A DNA stretch of 64,000 bases from positions 1-64,000 of the forward strand of contig JAILLQ010000037.1 in the NCBI GenBank assembly GCA_024693045.1, written 5' to 3'. The notes under the pieces were generated by a model, which searched no databases, was not told the DNA's origin, and was given only the letters and a program-made list of their open reading frames with translations. Origin of the DNA: Treponema sp. (GTDB lineage: Bacteria; Spirochaetota; Spirochaetia; Treponematales; Treponemataceae). Below, piece by piece: positions 16,964 through 24,531 of the stretch. The position numbers were made by a program, and so were the translations under genes. How positions within the stretch are numbered: position 1 is the first letter of the stretch; every line of letters starts with the position of its first letter.

Positions 16964-17203
16964 TCAGTTTTCTTTTTTCGTAAGTGGTAGACCGGTATGG
17001 TTATCAATAAAATCAATCTGAAGCCTACAGTCAAGAACTGATGCAATATGTTCCAGGTCAGAAATTTTCATGTCGTTTCTTTTATATTTATTTCCCAGGT
17101 TTTGTCTTGTAATTCCCAATCGCCCCGCGAGTTCTGAACTGTTTAATTCCCTGATAGAAAGGCACTTTTTTATAAACTTGGTTAAATCAATTTTTTCAAA
17201 CAT
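16964..17203 (-). CDS. Small XRE-like helix-turn-helix regulator
   Basis: A 79-residue protein with a helix-turn-helix of the Cro/C1 type: LNSSELAGRLGITRQNLGNKYKR followed by KISDLEHIASVLDC. ATG 17203 is preferred over a TTG at 17239, because that TTG is itself the -35 hexamer TTGACA of a good promoter. The -10 (17215-17210) lies 6 bases before the ATG, so the mRNA is predicted to be leaderless. A single-domain regulator next to a tRNA gene is typical of accessory DNA, but no phage or integrase gene is present. Targets unknown. Confidence 0.75.
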   Translation of the reverse strand: MFEKIDLTKFIKKCLSIRELNSSELAGRLGITRQNLGNKYKRNDMKISDLEHIASVLDCRLQIDFIDNHTGLPLTKKEN

Positions 17204-17209
17204 GTTCTC

Positions 17210-17239
17210 AACATACACTAATAAGTGAACTTTTGTCAA
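17210..17239 (-). promoter_or_regulatory. Promoter of the HTH regulator, predicted leaderless
   Basis: On the minus strand, TTGACA (17239-17234) and TATGTT (17215-17210) are 18 bases apart, and the gap from the -10 to the ATG at 17203 is exactly 6 bases (GAGAAC). Initiation at or next to the A of the ATG is expected. Confidence 0.7.
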
Positions 17240-17477: not shown

Positions 17478-17560
17478 TACCCGGCACGAGATTTGAACTC
17501 GCAAGAGCAAAGCTCACCTGGACCTGAACCAGGCGCGTCTACCAATTCCGCCAACCGGGC
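17478..17560 (-). tRNA. trnL: tRNA-Leu (anticodon CAG)
   Basis: Acceptor GCCCGGT pairs with GCCGGGT (G-T at both ends), anticodon stem CCTGG/CCAGG holds the loop TTCAGGT (anticodon CAG), a long class II variable arm (TGAGCTTTGCTCTT) follows, and the T loop is TTCAAAT. Discriminator A; CCA not encoded. Length 83. Confidence 0.93.
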
Positions 17561-17705: not shown

Positions 17706-17734
17706 TTGACCAAAGATTTTTTGAACTATATGAT
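17706..17734 (+). promoter_or_regulatory. Promoter of the envelope cluster
   Basis: TTGACC (17706-17711) and TATGAT (17729-17734) are separated by 17 bases; initiation near 17741 gives a leader of about 39 bases holding a GAGGT ribosome site. It probably drives the genes from 17780 to 23803. Confidence 0.75.
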
Positions 17735-17779: not shown

Positions 17780-18667
17780 ATGTCAGATTATGTACAGAAT
17801 GAAACAGAAGATGAAATATCTTTAATTGAACTTTTTGCAGTTCTATTAAAATTTAGAAAACTTATTGTCATTGGGACAGCAGTTGTTACTTTTTTGGCTG
17901 GAACATATTTATTTGTTCTTCCAAAAATTATTCCTGCATTAAGCAAGGATAAAGTTACCGTTACATACAATATACGAGTAAAACCTTTATCATCTAGACT
18001 TTCTGGAGGCCTTTCTACTATCGGTTCTGATATTAATATTCATGCTTCTCTTGTGTCTAGTTTTAAGAATCTCCCGGTTGTATCTGTTAAATACAAGGAT
18101 TATCCTTTCTTAGGTTCTGACTATCCTGAAAATCCTGATATGTATAATATGTTTATTAGCAGAAAATTTGATGATGAATCAAAGCTTATAAGCGTAAAGG
18201 GGTCTTTAATTCCAAATACCTATGAGGTAAGTATAAAACTTCTTAGAGAAAATCTTGACTACGCAGAATCTTTTGTAAAGGAAATGGTGAAACTTACTGA
18301 TCAGTCTCTTACTGGTAGAATTGCAGAAGCTTTACCACTTTTACAGGCTAATACAGAAGAATCTATTAAGCGTATCGATACTTCCAATGCTCAGATTAAC
18401 GATATTTCTACTATTCAGTATCTTCATGATTTACTTTTTGAAATTAATAAATATCAAAAACAAAAAGATAAATCTTTATTAGAATTTCAAACTGATAAAT
18501 TTGTAATTGGTACAGCAAAGGGGAGAGTAAAAAAATTAATTATATCAATGTTTGCTTCTTTCTTCTGTTTTGTATTTATTGCCTTTGTAAAAGCAGGAAT
18601 TAACTCTGTTATGACAAATCCATCATCTAAAAAAATAATTGTAGATGCATGGGAAGAAGGTAAGTAA
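17780..18667 (+). CDS. Wzz-like (chain-length determinant) membrane protein
   Basis: This 295-residue protein has the topology of polysaccharide co-polymerases: an N-terminal motif EISLIELFAVLLKFRK, a membrane helix at about 31-50, a long periplasmic section with a helical region (about 165-235), and a second membrane helix near 252-272. Wzz proteins set polysaccharide chain length, but no glycosyltransferase, flippase or polymerase gene is nearby; instead it leads a Lol-like transporter cluster with 9 bases before the first permease. Its job here may be different. The C-terminal Pro-rich motif of classical Wzz is not obvious. Confidence 0.65.
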   Translation: MSDYVQNETEDEISLIELFAVLLKFRKLIVIGTAVVTFLAGTYLFVLPKIIPALSKDKVTVTYNIRVKPLSSRLSGGLSTIGSDINIHASLVSSFKNLPVVSVKYKDYPFLGSDYPENPDMYNMFISRKFDDESKLISVKGSLIPNTYEVSIKLLRENLDYAESFVKEMVKLTDQSLTGRIAEALPLLQANTEESIKRIDTSNAQINDISTIQYLHDLLFEINKYQKQKDKSLLEFQTDKFVIGTAKGRVKKLIISMFASFFCFVFIAFVKAGINSVMTNPSSKKIIVDAWEEGK

Positions 18668-18676
18668 CTAGAGTTT

Positions 18677-20101
18677 ATGATTATAAAACTTGCATTAAAA
18701 AATATTCTCGCGCGAAAAAGTTCTATAGTTATTGTGCTTTTTATTGCCTTCAGTGTTGCTCTTTTTGTAATTACAAATTCCATTTTTGATAGTACCGAAA
18801 ATGGAATTCAAGAAACTTATGTTTCAAGTTTTACAGGAGATATTTTAATCAGACCTAAAAATGAATCTCCTTTGAGCATTCTAGGTGATGAAACTCCTGT
18901 AACAGGAACTTTTTCCGAAACTCCAATATTGAGTCCCTATTTGGATATAGTTGATTTTATTCAAGAAAATCCAAATATTGATTCTTTTTGTCCTCTCATA
19001 AGTGGTTTTGTCGCTCTTGAATACAAAAACCAGAAATTTCCTTGTATTATTTTTGGTGTGAATGCAGAAGACTACCTGAACATAATGAATGCAATAAAAA
19101 TTGAGCAAGGAAAGCCTTTTGAAAACGATAAAGAAGGCATTATGCTTTCAACTCAGATTTCAAAACATTTAAATGCGGATATCGGTAGTGACATTCAGTT
19201 TGTTGTTGCCAGAGGTTTATCAGCTAGAATTAGAACTGCACCTATTACAGCAATTTATTCATATCCTGTTGAAAATTCAATTTTTGACGAAATTGTTATT
19301 ATCTCACATGAGATAGCAAGAGAATTATTAGATATTGCAGGAATGTATGATAGTGACGATGTTGTTCTTGAAGAAGATTTGGAAAATCTTCTTTCTGATT
19401 TTGATTTAGAATCAATGTTTGAAGAAGCTGAAGATGTAGGTCAGATTACCAAAGAAAACTCAGTTTTTGTTAGCAGCGATGATAATTCTTTTCAAGAAAA
19501 TGAAGCAAAAGCATCTTCTTGGAATTTTATTACTTGTAAAGTTAAAAATAAAAAAGAAGTAAAACATACGATAAGAATGTTGAACCGATATTTTAAGAAT
19601 AATTCTTGGCCGGTAGAAGCTGTAAACTGGAGACATGCAGCAGGAAGTAATGCTATGTATCTTTATTTCCTTCGTTTAATTATGAATATTGGAATTTTCA
19701 TTATTCTTTTTGCTGGATTTATCGTAATCAATAACACGCTCATAATAAACATTTTGGATAGAACTTGCGAAATTGGAACAATGAGAGCTATCGGTACAAC
19801 AAAGAAGTTTGTAAGTTTGGAATGTATGTCTGAAACTCTCATCATTTCAATTATTGCTGGATTTATTGGTTGTTTAATGGGTGTAATTCTTAGTTATATA
19901 ATTTCACAATCAAACATAGCTTTAACGAATGCTTTCTTAATTCAATTGTTTGGTTGTAACAAACTTGTTACTCTTATTACAGCAAAAAATCTCTTTTCTA
20001 GTTTTTGCGTTTCCCTTTCTATTGGCGTTGTTGCATGGATTTATCCTGTACTGGCAGCGCTAAAAACAAGTCCGGTTGTTGCAATGCAGGGGGGTAAATA
20101 A
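18677..20101 (+). CDS. FtsX/LolC-type ABC transporter permease 1
   Basis: A 474-residue MacB/LolC/LolE-family permease: helix 1 at about 16-35, a large periplasmic domain (about 36-325), then three C-terminal helices, with EIGTMRAIGTTKK as the coupling segment between helices 2 and 3. Such permeases use ATP to extract lipoproteins or push substrates in the periplasm (mechanotransmission) rather than pumping across the membrane. The periplasmic domain carries an unusual acidic insert (about 225-281) with D-F-D-L-E-S-M-F-E-E-A-E-D at 241-253, matched in the barrel protein at 22184. Its stop overlaps the next start by one base. Confidence 0.85.
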   Translation: MIIKLALKNILARKSSIVIVLFIAFSVALFVITNSIFDSTENGIQETYVSSFTGDILIRPKNESPLSILGDETPVTGTFSETPILSPYLDIVDFIQENPNIDSFCPLISGFVALEYKNQKFPCIIFGVNAEDYLNIMNAIKIEQGKPFENDKEGIMLSTQISKHLNADIGSDIQFVVARGLSARIRTAPITAIYSYPVENSIFDEIVIISHEIARELLDIAGMYDSDDVVLEEDLENLLSDFDLESMFEEAEDVGQITKENSVFVSSDDNSFQENEAKASSWNFITCKVKNKKEVKHTIRMLNRYFKNNSWPVEAVNWRHAAGSNAMYLYFLRLIMNIGIFIILFAGFIVINNTLIINILDRTCEIGTMRAIGTTKKFVSLECMSETLIISIIAGFIGCLMGVILSYIISQSNIALTNAFLIQLFGCNKLVTLITAKNLFSSFCVSLSIGVVAWIYPVLAALKTSPVVAMQGGK

Positions 20102-21384
20102 TGGTTGAATCTGTTTTGGCCTTTCGTTCTCTTTTGTTTAGAAAAAAGCAATATGCATCTCTTTTTTTTATTTGTCTTTTTGGAACAGCAGTTTCTCTCT
20201 TTTCTATTTTCTTGAGTACAGGGATGATTGCTTCTCTTTCTGAAAAAGCTCTAATTTATTATGGTGGTGAATTTGTAATAATGAGTTCAGAGATTGATGA
20301 AAGGGTTATTCCCGATGTTGACTCAAAAGTTGAGCTTTTAAAGACTCTTTTGCCAGAAGATGCTGTAATTACAACTCGTTACGATTTTGGTTCTGGTATG
20401 AATACCTGCTTCTATTATGAAGGGGAAGAAGTTTTGCAGAGAGTTTTTAAAGGGGTTTCTTTTAAGGAAGAATCGTTCCTTTTTGATAAACTAAACTTTT
20501 TGAAGGGAAATTATGATATTCCAAAAGGTTCTAATAAAATTCTCATCAGCGAGCCTATTGCGAAAAAATTAGGTGCCGGAATAGGTGACGAAATTACTTT
20601 GTACATGAGAAATATCAATGGTTATATTAATACTCTTCCTGTTGAGATTAATGGTATTTTTCAGGATTCAAGTGTTTTTGGAATGTTTACAACCTATATC
20701 GATAAAGAGTTTTTACTAAAGGCTTATGGAAGAACTTCTGATTTTGCTAATAGAATTTGCGTTGAATTTCCAAAAAGAAAAAAAATCTCTGATTCTTTTT
20801 ATAAAGATCTTCAAAGTAACCTAGAAAAGCATTTAAAAATGTTTCCAATTGTGCCAGATAAGAACACTTTTTATTTTTCAGGTTGTTCACCTGATACTTA
20901 TGCTATTATTCCGTTAAAATCAAATTTGAATGATATAAAAATTATAAAAAGTGCAATGACTTTAGTAATAAGTATCATTATTTTATTCTTGATTATTATA
21001 ATAGTTGCCGGAATTGGTAGTACATATAAAGTACTGGTCATGAAAAGAATAAATGAAATTGGAATCTATATGGCTATTGGCATGAAAAAAAATGCTATTA
21101 TGAAAAGCCTCCTCTACGAAACTCTTTTTCTTTTGTTGAGCGGCTGTTTTTCAGGCTTTGTATTAAGTTTAATTCTTTGTGGAATAGTAAGAATTATTAA
21201 GTTTAATTTTATACCTGCTTTTTCAATATTCCTGAGTAAAGGTTATATACAGCCTGCTATTAATTTACCAATAATGTTTGCCATACTTGTTATTATAATA
21301 TCTGTAACATTGATTACGGTTTGCAATTCAGTGAAGAAATGTGTTAATATTATGCCTTGTAAGGCTATTTCTAGCAACGAATGA
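20101..21384 (+). CDS. FtsX/LolC-type ABC transporter permease 2
   Basis: The second FtsX-family permease (427 residues) presumably pairs with the first as in LolCE. It has helix 1 (about 19-40), a periplasmic domain to about 280, and three C-terminal helices with NEIGIYMAIGMKKNAIM as the coupling segment. It lacks the acidic insert of permease 1, so the two are not interchangeable. TAATG coupling to the upstream gene and a 4-base-scale link to the downstream LolA-like gene argue for one complex. Confidence 0.85.
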   Translation: MVESVLAFRSLLFRKKQYASLFFICLFGTAVSLFSIFLSTGMIASLSEKALIYYGGEFVIMSSEIDERVIPDVDSKVELLKTLLPEDAVITTRYDFGSGMNTCFYYEGEEVLQRVFKGVSFKEESFLFDKLNFLKGNYDIPKGSNKILISEPIAKKLGAGIGDEITLYMRNINGYINTLPVEINGIFQDSSVFGMFTTYIDKEFLLKAYGRTSDFANRICVEFPKRKKISDSFYKDLQSNLEKHLKMFPIVPDKNTFYFSGCSPDTYAIIPLKSNLNDIKIIKSAMTLVISIIILFLIIIIVAGIGSTYKVLVMKRINEIGIYMAIGMKKNAIMKSLLYETLFLLLSGCFSGFVLSLILCGIVRIIKFNFIPAFSIFLSKGYIQPAINLPIMFAILVIIISVTLITVCNSVKKCVNIMPCKAISSNE

Positions 21385-21392
21385 GAGGATTT

Positions 21393-22184
21393 ATGAAAAA
21401 AATTATTACAGTACTTTGTTTAGTGTTTACATCAGCTTTTCTTAATGCTGAAGTTAATATGGATCAAGCAAAAGAGTTACTTCAGTCAGCTGAAGATAGC
21501 ACTTGTTTTTATAATACAGATATGAAGGGTGATTATCAGATTGTACACGATAAGCCGGGTGAAGGTCGAAATGTGCTTAGCGCTATTTTGTATAGACGTG
21601 ATTCACAACGTAAGTGGACAATTTTAATAACAGGTCCTGATTCGGATAAGGGTAAAGGGTATCTGCAGTTTGATTCAAATATTTGGTTTTTTGATCCAAG
21701 TGATAAGCGTTTTACATTTAGCTCCGCAAGGGATAAATTTCAAAATACAAATGCAAATACCAGTGACTTTGCTCCCCAGCTTTATGCACAGGACTATGAA
21801 ATTTCTGCTTACAAAGAAAGTAAATTAGGAAAATTTGACTGTATTCTTTATTTATTAAAAGCTGTTTCAAAAGATGTTGCATACCCGGAAATAAAATTGT
21901 GGGTTAGTAAGGCCGATGGACTTATGAGAAAAAGGGAAGATTACAGTCTTTCCAGCCAGAGATTAAGAACCATTGCTGTTCCTTCTTATCAAAAAATTAC
22001 AAACAAAGATAAAGAATATTCAGTTCCTGTAAATATGATTATTCAGGATCACTTGAGAGGAAAGAAAATTGACGGAAAAATGCAGTACGAAAAAACTGTA
22101 ATTTCAATTAGTAACCTTGTATTTAATAAAGTAGACGATATTGTTTACACAAAGCCTTATCTTGAAATGATGAGCGTAAAATAA
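21393..22184 (+). CDS. LolA-like outer-membrane lipoprotein-sorting protein
   Basis: ATG 21393 follows GAGAGGA and starts a signal peptide without a lipobox cysteine (MKKIITVLCLVFTSAFLNA), so the 263-residue protein should be a soluble periplasmic protein. The rest fits the LolA/COG2834 family: alternating strands forming a half-barrel, with LQFDSNIWFFDPSDKRF and KIDGKMQYEKTVISIS typical of its 'd..W.Y.p....' pattern. LolA proteins carry lipids or lipoproteins across the periplasm. Being encoded between the permeases and an outer-membrane barrel suggests that it shuttles their substrate. Confidence 0.75.
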   Translation: MKKIITVLCLVFTSAFLNAEVNMDQAKELLQSAEDSTCFYNTDMKGDYQIVHDKPGEGRNVLSAILYRRDSQRKWTILITGPDSDKGKGYLQFDSNIWFFDPSDKRFTFSSARDKFQNTNANTSDFAPQLYAQDYEISAYKESKLGKFDCILYLLKAVSKDVAYPEIKLWVSKADGLMRKREDYSLSSQRLRTIAVPSYQKITNKDKEYSVPVNMIIQDHLRGKKIDGKMQYEKTVISISNLVFNKVDDIVYTKPYLEMMSVK

Positions 22185-23803
22185 TGAAGTGTGATCATTT
22201 AAAAAATATAATTCTACTCAATTTTTTTCTATTTTCATTTTCTTCTATATTTGCCGAAAGTAATTCATCTTCGCAAGAGACTAGAAGTGGTTTGTTATCT
22301 GACAATTTAGAAGGAAATGAAGCTATTAATACAAATAGTCTGGATGATGAGTTTAGCAGTGTTGATGAAGAAATAGATGCACTATTTGCTGCAGATGAAT
22401 TTGAATTCTTTGATGACGATTTTGATTCTATGTTTGAAGATGTAGAAGATACAGAAATCGTAGTTGAGGAAGAAAGCAAGAATGAGCCTTCATTTTTGGA
22501 TTTTAAGGCCTTACCAGTTACTTTTACAGGTAGTCTAACCTCTGATATTGGTTTAGGTTATATTTATGAATCTACTGCAATTATAGATGAATATGTAAGA
22601 AGATTTGAGCAGTATAACTATTACACGTCATGTCTGAATTCTGGTACCATTACAAGAGACGAATTTGTTTATTTAATGGCTTATCATAATATAACAAATA
22701 ATCCCGACCAGCTGTTTACCGCCGATGAATTGCTTGATTTTGCTCTGAGGAAATCTTCTGTTTCTAGCCAGGCAAATAAACTTACAGGATATTTTACCTT
22801 TTCAAATACTCTTAATATCAATGCTCGTCCAAGTAAAGATTTTGCACTTCACGGTTCTATAAATATAACTTTTCCTGGCTATACCTGGGGGTTAAGTGAA
22901 TGTTATTTTGACTTGATTGTAAGAAACAGTATTTGTTTTACAGTTGGTAAAAAAGCAACAACTTGGGGTTATACAAGGCTTTTTAGTCAATCAACAAATT
23001 CTACGAAGGAATATGAAGTTGGCGGAGAAAACACAAATATTCTCTCTGATACAGGTTCCGGAACAAGTCTTATGCTTAGAATTCCTTTTTGGACAGGTAC
23101 TATTTCTGCTCTTGCCGTATATACAGGGAGTTCTTCAACACCAAACTTTGATGAAATGTTCTTTGCAGGCTCTGTTGAACTGGTCGTAAAAAAAGTTTCA
23201 ATTAATTTGTTTGGAAGAAAAGAAAATGTTGAAACAGGTGAAACACTAGGGCCTTTACTAGGTCTTGAAATGAAAAGAACGATTTTTGATGCAGATGTTT
23301 ATGGGCAATTTTTAGCAAGAACCGATAATGACGAAGCTTTTGAAGATATTCTAAAAGGAGATGCGGATTATAAAAACTTCCAGCAGTTTATTTTTACTGG
23401 CGGTTTATATCGCTGGTGGGATAAGCATGATCCGAATTTCGGTTTTAATATTGAATATCAGGGAGCCTGTGCTTTATATACCGTAGAGGAAGAAAATCCT
23501 TATTATTCTTATATTCCTGGTCAGGAACAGTACAAAGAAGTTTTACAAACAACAATAAATCATCGCATTGCATATGATGTTGGTGTAAAAAGACTTGGAA
23601 AAAATCACAATATAAAAATCGGTGTTGAAGGAAGTCATGATCTTTCTGACAAAACAGGTTATGTTAAACCTGGTATAAAAATTAGCGGAATATTCCCATA
23701 CTGCGACTGGAACACCGGGGTTAAGTGGGAGTATGGGGAATCTCTTCCGACTCAAGGCAGATTCACAATAGGCTCTTATATAAGCCTTTCTGCAAGCTAC
23801 TAG
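22184..23803 (+). CDS. Outer-membrane beta-barrel protein with acidic N-terminus
   Basis: This 539-residue protein has a signal peptide (about 1-24), an acidic low-complexity segment (about 25-100) and then a long series of amphipathic strands alternating aromatic and small residues (e.g. LYRWWDKHDPNFGFNIEYQG, GSYISLSASY at the C-terminus), as expected for an outer-membrane barrel ending in an aromatic residue (Tyr). The acidic segment contains D-F-D-S-M-F-E-D-V-E-D at 79-89, close to the acidic insert of permease 1. It starts in a TAATG overlap with the LolA-like gene. Likely the outer-membrane acceptor or exit of the system; the family is not recognised. Confidence 0.65.
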   Translation: MKCDHLKNIILLNFFLFSFSSIFAESNSSSQETRSGLLSDNLEGNEAINTNSLDDEFSSVDEEIDALFAADEFEFFDDDFDSMFEDVEDTEIVVEEESKNEPSFLDFKALPVTFTGSLTSDIGLGYIYESTAIIDEYVRRFEQYNYYTSCLNSGTITRDEFVYLMAYHNITNNPDQLFTADELLDFALRKSSVSSQANKLTGYFTFSNTLNINARPSKDFALHGSINITFPGYTWGLSECYFDLIVRNSICFTVGKKATTWGYTRLFSQSTNSTKEYEVGGENTNILSDTGSGTSLMLRIPFWTGTISALAVYTGSSSTPNFDEMFFAGSVELVVKKVSINLFGRKENVETGETLGPLLGLEMKRTIFDADVYGQFLARTDNDEAFEDILKGDADYKNFQQFIFTGGLYRWWDKHDPNFGFNIEYQGACALYTVEEENPYYSYIPGQEQYKEVLQTTINHRIAYDVGVKRLGKNHNIKIGVEGSHDLSDKTGYVKPGIKISGIFPYCDWNTGVKWEYGESLPTQGRFTIGSYISLSASY

Positions 23804-24531
23804 GATTCAAGAATAGTTCCGTCTTTTATCTTTATTACATGATTTGCCATTGCAACAATTTTGGCATCATGTGTAGAAAAGACGAATGTTGTTTTTAATT
23901 CTTCATTCAACTTTTTCATTAGTTCAAGAATTTGGGTACCGTTCTTGCTGTCAAGGTTTGCAGTAGGTTCATCGGCAAGAATTATAGGTGCTTTTGTAAC
24001 AAGTGCTCTGGCAACTGCAACTCTCTGTCTCTGTCCGCCACTTAATTCGCTAGGTTTATGTTTTTTCCATGCAGTAAGACCTACTGTTTCAAGTAAAAAA
24101 TCTATCCATTCCTTTCTTTCTGCAGGACTCATAGAGTCATATGCAGGAGATGAACCAATTTTTAGTGGAAATTCAACGTTTTCAAAAACATTTAAAACTG
24201 GAATTAAGTTAAAAGTCTGGAATATAAAACCTAAGTTTCTTCTTCTTAATTCAGTAAGCTTTACATCTAATTTATGAGGAATTTTAGTGTCCTTAGTTAT
24301 TTTTATATCTTTATAAACATCTGTTCCGTTTAAAATTATTTTCCCGGAAGTTGGCAAATCTATTAAACCAATCATGTTTAAAAGAGTACTTTTCCCTGAA
24401 CCACTAGGACCTGAAATAGCTGCAAATTCTCCTTCTTGAATAGTAAAATTTGCATCGGCAACAGCATGGACTTCAACCTTGTCCATCTGGTAAGTTTTGT
24501 AAACATTTTGCAATTCAATTACTGATTTCAT
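23800..24531 (-). CDS. LolD/MacB-type ABC transporter ATPase
   Basis: A 243-residue ATPase with Walker A GPSGSGKST, Q-loop FIFQTFNLIPVLNV, signature LSGGQRQRVAVARAL, Walker B IILADEPTANLD and the switch His in STHD. These are the LolD-type features that pair with FtsX-family permeases, so it almost certainly energises the two permeases on the other strand, although it is transcribed convergently and overlaps the barrel gene by 4 bases at the stops. A stretch of about 15 residues rich in Lys/Thr is inserted between Walker A and the Q loop. Confidence 0.88.
   Translation of the reverse strand: MKSVIELQNVYKTYQMDKVEVHAVADANFTIQEGEFAAISGPSGSGKSTLLNMIGLIDLPTSGKIILNGTDVYKDIKITKDTKIPHKLDVKLTELRRRNLGFIFQTFNLIPVLNVFENVEFPLKIGSSPAYDSMSPAERKEWIDFLLETVGLTAWKKHKPSELSGGQRQRVAVARALVTKAPIILADEPTANLDSKNGTQILELMKKLNEELKTTFVFSTHDAKIVAMANHVIKIKDGTILES

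Follow-up and report, generated by a model that had tools for sequence, protein, structure and literature searches.

Which route across the cell envelope, if any, is encoded by a set of six genes at positions 17,780 to 24,531 of a 64,000-nucleotide stretch of Treponema sp. DNA (assembly GCA_024693045.1, contig JAILLQ010000037.1, positions 1 to 64,000), and how would its periplasmic carrier recognise where to load and where to unload? The whole 64-kb stretch is referred to as the window, and positions count from its first nucleotide unless another locus is named. The set encodes a Wzz-like protein, two LolC/E-type permeases, a LolA-like carrier, a porin-like outer-membrane barrel and a LolD-like ATP-binding cassette (ABC) ATPase. 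The question matters since outer-membrane assembly is poorly understood in spirochaetes, and how a periplasmic lipid shuttle locates its partners in the two membranes has been worked out chiefly for LolA and LolC. We tentatively propose, at somewhat less than an even chance, that the set represents a specialised Lol-like export line which supplements the standard Lol and Lpt systems, and in which an acidic tag common to one permease and the barrel serves as putative dock for the carrier. In this rumen-type Treponema a shuttle may thus recognise its loading and unloading stations via one label.

Permease 1 (474 amino acids (aa); 18677..20101, + strand) matches FtsX (E 8e-16) and MacB_PCD (E 2.7e-9), and permease 2 (427 aa; 20101..21384, + strand), of the FtsX/MacB_PCD class, is assigned to the LolC/E type by its FtsX Pfam match only (E 1.8e-12). 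The carrier (21381..22184, + strand) belongs to PF17131 (E 2.5e-29), possesses a signal peptide, is basic (isoelectric point (pI) 8.8) and has 3buu as its solved relative (E 4.7e-10); its start is probably the second ATG, at 21393, since an ordinary signal peptide results from this choice. The barrel (539 aa; 22184..23803, + strand) combines a signal peptide and an acidic N-terminal extension with a porin-like fold, while the Pfam scan of the window proteins returned no match for it. The ATPase (23800..24531, - strand) matches ABC_tran (E 3.4e-34); among the curated models DarD came closest and LolD gave 208.8 bits (cut-off 307.75), both remaining below their cut-offs. Against the curated NCBIfam lolCE model the permeases reached 68 and 33 bits (cut-off 362), and the separate LolC/E pair of G000, the genome from which the window comes, likewise stayed under the cut-off (205 and 170 bits). 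Together with the Wzz-like gene described below, all six open reading frames (ORFs) named by the sequence-only reading of this DNA are real according to Pfam, NCBIfam and the structural models. They had also been described as encoded together, which holds for the five co-directional genes; the ATPase gene, however, is convergent with these (4-bp overlap at the stops) and therefore lies outside their transcript at the window locus.

The gene set and its conservation are solid. Gene neighbourhoods were compared in a Treponema sample (loci L031-L047), in same-genus loci (L002-L030 and L070-L085) and in 18 order-level loci selected for a permease next to a PF17131 gene. All retrieved Treponema stretches of sufficient length show permease 1, permease 2, carrier and barrel in this order, apart from a few cases in which a contig ends or an ORF is broken (such as the split barrel of L033, or L084, in which no permease was recognised). 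An ATPase gene is located near the set in most Treponema loci, either convergent, co-directional or upstream. The usual order-level layout is ATPase, permease, permease, carrier, with the ATPase leading and, in most of the 18 loci, a barrel-type ORF behind the carrier. Since the barrel recurs beside the carrier in the genus and mostly in the order, it belongs to the set; its presence beside permeases and carrier in relatives, on which the sequence-only reading had staked its proposal, is thus confirmed. The two groups of barrels resemble each other only remotely (hhalign P-value 0.0017, probability 15%; in the order-level comparison the best system barrel of the genus gave E 2.6e-4), so that their orthology is likely but not proven. 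An assignment to DUF1302 or another Pfam family was discarded because neither the window barrel nor eight order-level barrels gave a match, apart from one weak hit to DUF4231. Elsewhere G000 contains a separate LolC/E-type pair with an ATPase gene between them (L069), two PF03548 LolA matches away from the set, and LptF/LptG homologues; the set is therefore additional to the standard machinery.

AlphaFold models of the barrel and permease 1 were compared with the PDB using Foldseek. Their predicted template modelling scores (pTM 0.60 and 0.62) mean that they speak to the fold only. The best matches of the barrel model were MOMP, DcaP and OmpF (E 3e-9 to 5e-8), and the 50 PDB matches listed for it are mostly porins, together with AlgE and FimD; BamA and TamA are absent among these 50. 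The top matches of permease 1 were LolE and LolC (best E 4.4e-20). E. coli LolC uses its Hook to recruit LolA (PMC10865981). In the model of permease 1, read by itself, only a very short turn lies between the strands at 179-182, so that a Hook may be lacking there.

Permease 1 and the barrel share an acidic tag of about 20 residues (DDxDSLFxDAED), which is located in an insert of the former and again just behind the signal peptide of the latter. In permease 1 it covers aa 237-258 (NLLSDFDLESMFEEAEDVGQIT; 19385..19450, + strand) within the only long low-confidence stretch of the model (aa 225-276, predicted local distance difference test (pLDDT) <50), an insert that is probably disordered judging from the model. 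The main copy in the barrel covers aa 73-94 (FEFFDDDFDSMFEDVEDTEIVV; 22400..22465, + strand), where D79, D81, F84 and D89 are invariant in a 16-row barrel alignment and which the profiles A4 and A5 detect; a first, weaker copy around EIDALF (aa 57-71; 22352..22396, + strand) was recognised by reading the sequence. This N-terminal extension is also modelled with low confidence, and a short helix is predicted within it for each copy of the tag (58-67 and 77-82). Given the usual topologies, both tags would be periplasmic.

Using nothing but 41 barrel windows, we built a 22-residue position-specific scoring matrix (PSSM) and searched permease 1 of 27 loci with it. The scores averaged 18.3 bits, and the best window started at aa 236-283 in all 27 loci; the permease 1 tag of the window itself reached 15.1 bits, and low scores were obtained for L037 (-0.6) and L070 (4.9). 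In comparison, 236 control ORFs had a mean of -6.4 (standard deviation 5.2) and a maximum of 14.1, a value that belongs to a tagged exporter of the resistance-nodulation-division (RND) type and is exceeded by permease 1 in 20 of the 27 loci. Shuffled permease 1 segments scored up to 15.0, with a 99th percentile of 10.4. The matrix did not detect the tag in permease 2 (maximum 3.0 bits over 27 loci), the carrier, the ATPase or the Wzz-like protein, and the other LolC/E proteins of G000 also scored negative.

Because profile A4 was built with sequences of the window among its rows, its search of G000 is partly circular; it retrieved permease 1 (E 1.6e-7) and the barrel (E 2e-5) there, and no further hit was better than 0.83. 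The barrel-only profile A5 was held out, containing no rows from the searched genomes, and was applied to 20 genomes, 16 of them of the same genus. It found the G000 barrel in the whole genome (E 8.4e-5), and in 4 of the 16 same-genus genomes (G012, G042, G020 and G049) its top matches were permease 1 and the barrel of one locus, the permease of G012 being identified by position and ORF length only. The barrel and permease matches of G020 appear with the same scores on two contigs (G020:C13 and G020:C18), reflecting either a duplication or an assembly artefact. Large acid-rich proteins encoded near a Sua5-like gene (L166 2234-3781, L167 3327-6395) contain tag look-alikes (DFDSLFENLSDE) and are a likely source of false matches. 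Taken as a sequence feature, the shared tag appears solid across the genus and weaker genome by genome.

Three more PF17131 carriers are encoded in G000. The first lies behind an RND/MMPL exporter whose acidic tags are of the FDDF type and arranged in tandem (L066 6031-8895; G000:C36:16030-18894), another precedes a second barrel starting with QDFDDFESYDE (L067 10140-11780; G000:C38:68139-69779), and the third is part of an untagged set of MMPL2 exporter, LolA-like carrier and barrel (L068 6870-11307; G000:C38), which served as a negative control. The L066-type exporter, a carrier and the L067-type barrel are split in G000 and often form one operon in relatives. In this RND line the acidic loop of the exporter consists of repeats such as LPAFDDFSAFED, DDFGDFGDF or DDWGDS, and the barrels begin behind their signal peptides with QDFDDFESYDE, QDFDDFGSFGDF or QDDWGSDG, exporter and barrel alike showing the DFDDFG tag type. 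Exporters and barrels of the same genome share more 3-mers containing F or W than mismatched pairs (0.286 vs 0.169, p 5e-5, 21 genomes) in a test for which some barrel segments were cut imprecisely and whose p ignores relatedness. A matching of F-to-W replacements between the two tags, striking in single genomes, was abandoned because neither a first correlation nor a later crude test was significant. The barrel N-termini of L117 and L118 consist of long SFGSFDDD or SSEDDF repeats, which recall a multivalent FG-like region. In 18 MMPL2-type sets neither the acidic N-terminal tag of the barrel nor a tag array of the exporter was detected (0-3 regex hits per protein), which rules out the tag as a general barrel feature. 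In all three lines the tag is thus found on both partners or on neither.

Based on these features the two permeases and the ATPase would pull a lipid-anchored molecule out of the inner membrane and hand it to the LolA-like carrier, which would traverse the periplasm and deliver it to its own outer-membrane barrel. The acidic-aromatic tag on permease 1 and the barrel would be the docking site of the carrier, the same label marking loading and unloading; judged from the sequences, the chances that it is such a dock are near even. A broader address code, in which exporter and barrel of each line show one tag that is read at both ends by the LolA-like carrier of that line, appears possible, if on balance doubtful. 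Distinct tags, with DxDSLFxDAED marking the ABC line and repeats of DFGDF or DWGD the RND line, would in this case keep the cargoes apart. The exporter-barrel tag is a simple hypothesis that peptides can put to the test in vitro, and as a sequence signature it can serve to pair exporters with barrels across genomes.

As indirect support for such a dock, the carriers of tagged ABC sets are basic in 27 of 27 loci (mean net charge +4.6, pI 8.8). The mean is -0.4 for carriers from untagged order-level sets, and most MMPL2 carriers have no net charge or a negative one; genome composition may contribute to this pattern. Furthermore, the tags of ABC permease and barrel are more alike within than across loci (p 0.0007; p 0.0001 for 20 dereplicated loci), and their similarity climbs with the relatedness of the species, as expected from a common partner and also from a lineage-specific composition.

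With respect to the cargo, genes located near the set in relatives encode WecA-type transferases, ABC2-type exporters with their ATPase, Wzi, a polysaccharide flippase, an EpsG-family protein (upstream in one relative, L047), ManC, RmlA/RmlC types, an NDP-sugar epimerase and glycosyltransferases. A polysaccharide neighbour was detected at 10 of 25 set loci vs 1 of 20 same-genus LolC/E control loci (Fisher p 0.012) when queries were taken from other loci only and Wzt and Wzz were excluded; since the query families were chosen from the test loci, the enrichment is moderate evidence. The neighbours favour a glycolipid or a polysaccharide-linked lipid as cargo; the most likely candidates would be glycolipids or lipids associated with polysaccharide of the cell surface. 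Based on homology and neighbourhood the export of a lipid or glycolipid by the set is likely; it is from these that we infer both the cargo and the direction of transport. The sequence-only reading had suggested a trans-envelope route for a lipid, lipoprotein or glycan. Lipid or glycan remains the best reading given the polysaccharide genes nearby, but the same neighbours point away from lipoproteins.

Several observations weigh against the proposed export line and its dock. Profile A5 misses the G000 permease 1 at E 1 and has no match in five same-genus genomes, and in G021 and G044 unrelated, cytoplasmic acid-rich ORFs reach E 0.002-0.01 with it. The tag is absent from the order-level ABC sets, which work without it. 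The within-locus similarity of the ABC tags is not above the prediction from relatedness, so that this test does not support a co-evolution beyond relatedness. Tagged RND-set carriers span -5 to +11 and are not consistently basic, and we therefore rejected carrier charge as a rule for every tagged set; it is true of the ABC sets and mixed in the RND sets. Finally, loci with polysaccharide neighbours are a minority (10/25), and the polysaccharide query families were drawn from the test loci.

Some of these points would also suit a different role of the tags, namely that they bind another partner (such as metal ions, the machinery of barrel assembly or a chaperone with a general role in the periplasm) and were gained independently by exporter and barrel. 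Acidic disordered stretches are common, the unrelated acid-rich ORFs come to E 0.002, and the mixed charge pattern of the RND-set carriers fits this explanation as well. However, the 18 untagged MMPL2-linked barrels indicate that the tag is not a general barrel trait, and two further points speak against this explanation: in each of the three lines exporter and barrel are either both tagged or both untagged, and the similarity of permease and barrel tags grows with species relatedness. Another tag partner is hence unlikely, although it deserves serious consideration.

Alternatively, the set may be a lineage-specific lipoprotein line whose barrel helps a subset of lipoproteins to reach the surface, in which case the tag may still dock the carrier. 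This is consistent with the fold of permease 1, which is nearest to lipoprotein-bound LolE, and with the LolA fold of the carrier, and a lipoprotein function has been proposed in print for a similar spirochaete set, Borrelia BBJ23-29 (PMC13078400, as far as its published description goes). Taking into account that LolC/E, LolA and LptF/G homologues are encoded elsewhere in G000, that the carrier belongs to PF17131 and not to PF03548, and that the neighbouring genes indicate polysaccharide rather than lipoproteins, a lipoprotein line seems rather unlikely.

The Wzz-like protein (295 aa; 17780..18667, + strand), which has hydrophobic segments close to both termini, matches PF02706 just above the cut-off (26.5 vs 25.5 bits, aa 11-49) and is the sole PF02706 match of G000. 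Its gene adjoins the set in 6 of 25 loci, these belonging to several branches, and is then located directly upstream of permease 1, with a gap of 6-18 bp where measured. Both this position and the lack of another PF02706 match in G000 would be in line with a working part of the machine that sets glycan length or holds the exporter complex; however, the gene is missing beside 19 of the 25 sets, which retain all other parts, and such a role is improbable. The Wzz-like protein is thus an optional member of the locus, and neither its status as a core member nor the expectation that its gene is a constant neighbour of the permeases could be maintained. The dedicated promoter (TTGACC-17-TATGAT) that had been postulated ahead of the set gains no support either. 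Of 12 consensus bases the promoter-like site at 17706-17734 fits 10, yet 27 sites of this type occur in the region vs 33 expected from shuffles, and therefore the match alone is no evidence; matches at or below the chance rate were dropped as an argument for an operon. In the window the export set is flanked by housekeeping genes, and a small helix-turn-helix-like ORF (16964-17239, - strand) and a tRNA-Leu (CAG) gene (17478-17560, - strand) lie between enolase and the Wzz-like gene.

A role in the export or removal of toxic small molecules or peptides, instead of in building the envelope, is very improbable. Structural matches of permease 1 do include MacB, HrtBA and YbbAP, and DarD, below its cut-off, is the best model for the ATPase, but a MacA-type adaptor and a TolC-type factor were not found among the six proteins, the LolA-fold carrier suggests a lipid cargo, and polysaccharide genes are among the neighbours.

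The proposed export line with its putative carrier dock can be compared with several known systems, among which its general architecture already exists; a precedent for the paired tag did not come up in a limited literature search. This search revealed no paper on a docking motif of this type, and nothing relevant on PF17131 with MMPL or Treponema as judged from titles and abstracts. The sequence-only reading had stressed that Lol systems normally have no dedicated barrel; a Lol-like set with a barrel, however, is not unique, as BBJ23-29, AmeABCD and the RND-type sets of G000 illustrate. The window set resembles LolCDE-LolA-LolB in the LolC/E fold of permease 1, the LolD-like ATPase and the LolA-fold carrier, and differs from it by its own barrel, a carrier of PF17131, the lack of a recognised LolB in the set and, going by the model of permease 1, a possible absence of the LolC Hook. 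In MacAB-TolC, ATPase and permease are fused and cooperate with MacA and TolC, whereas the window set has a separate ATPase gene and no adaptor or TolC family among its six proteins. AmeABCD, as far as described in PMC6394551, also co-encodes an inner-membrane exporter, a LolA-superfamily periplasmic protein and a barrel, but these are of the RND, DUF1329 and DUF1302 types instead of ABC permeases, PF17131 and a barrel without Pfam match. The same-genus RND(MMPL) sets share the PF17131 carrier and the barrel with the window set, one kind being tagged on exporter and barrel as well; they differ by the RND exporter and by a DFDDFG tag or none. According to its published description (PMC13078400), the Borrelia BBJ23-29 cluster already represents a proposed spirochaete system in which one cluster encodes an ABC transporter (of the MacB/LolE type) together with a LolA-like protein and a barrel of the outer membrane, as in the window set. 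On the basis of that description it has an Omp85-type barrel, a homodimeric permease and two tetratricopeptide repeat (TPR) proteins, whereas the window set combines a porin-like barrel with two different permeases, has no TPR protein among its six genes and carries the shared tag.

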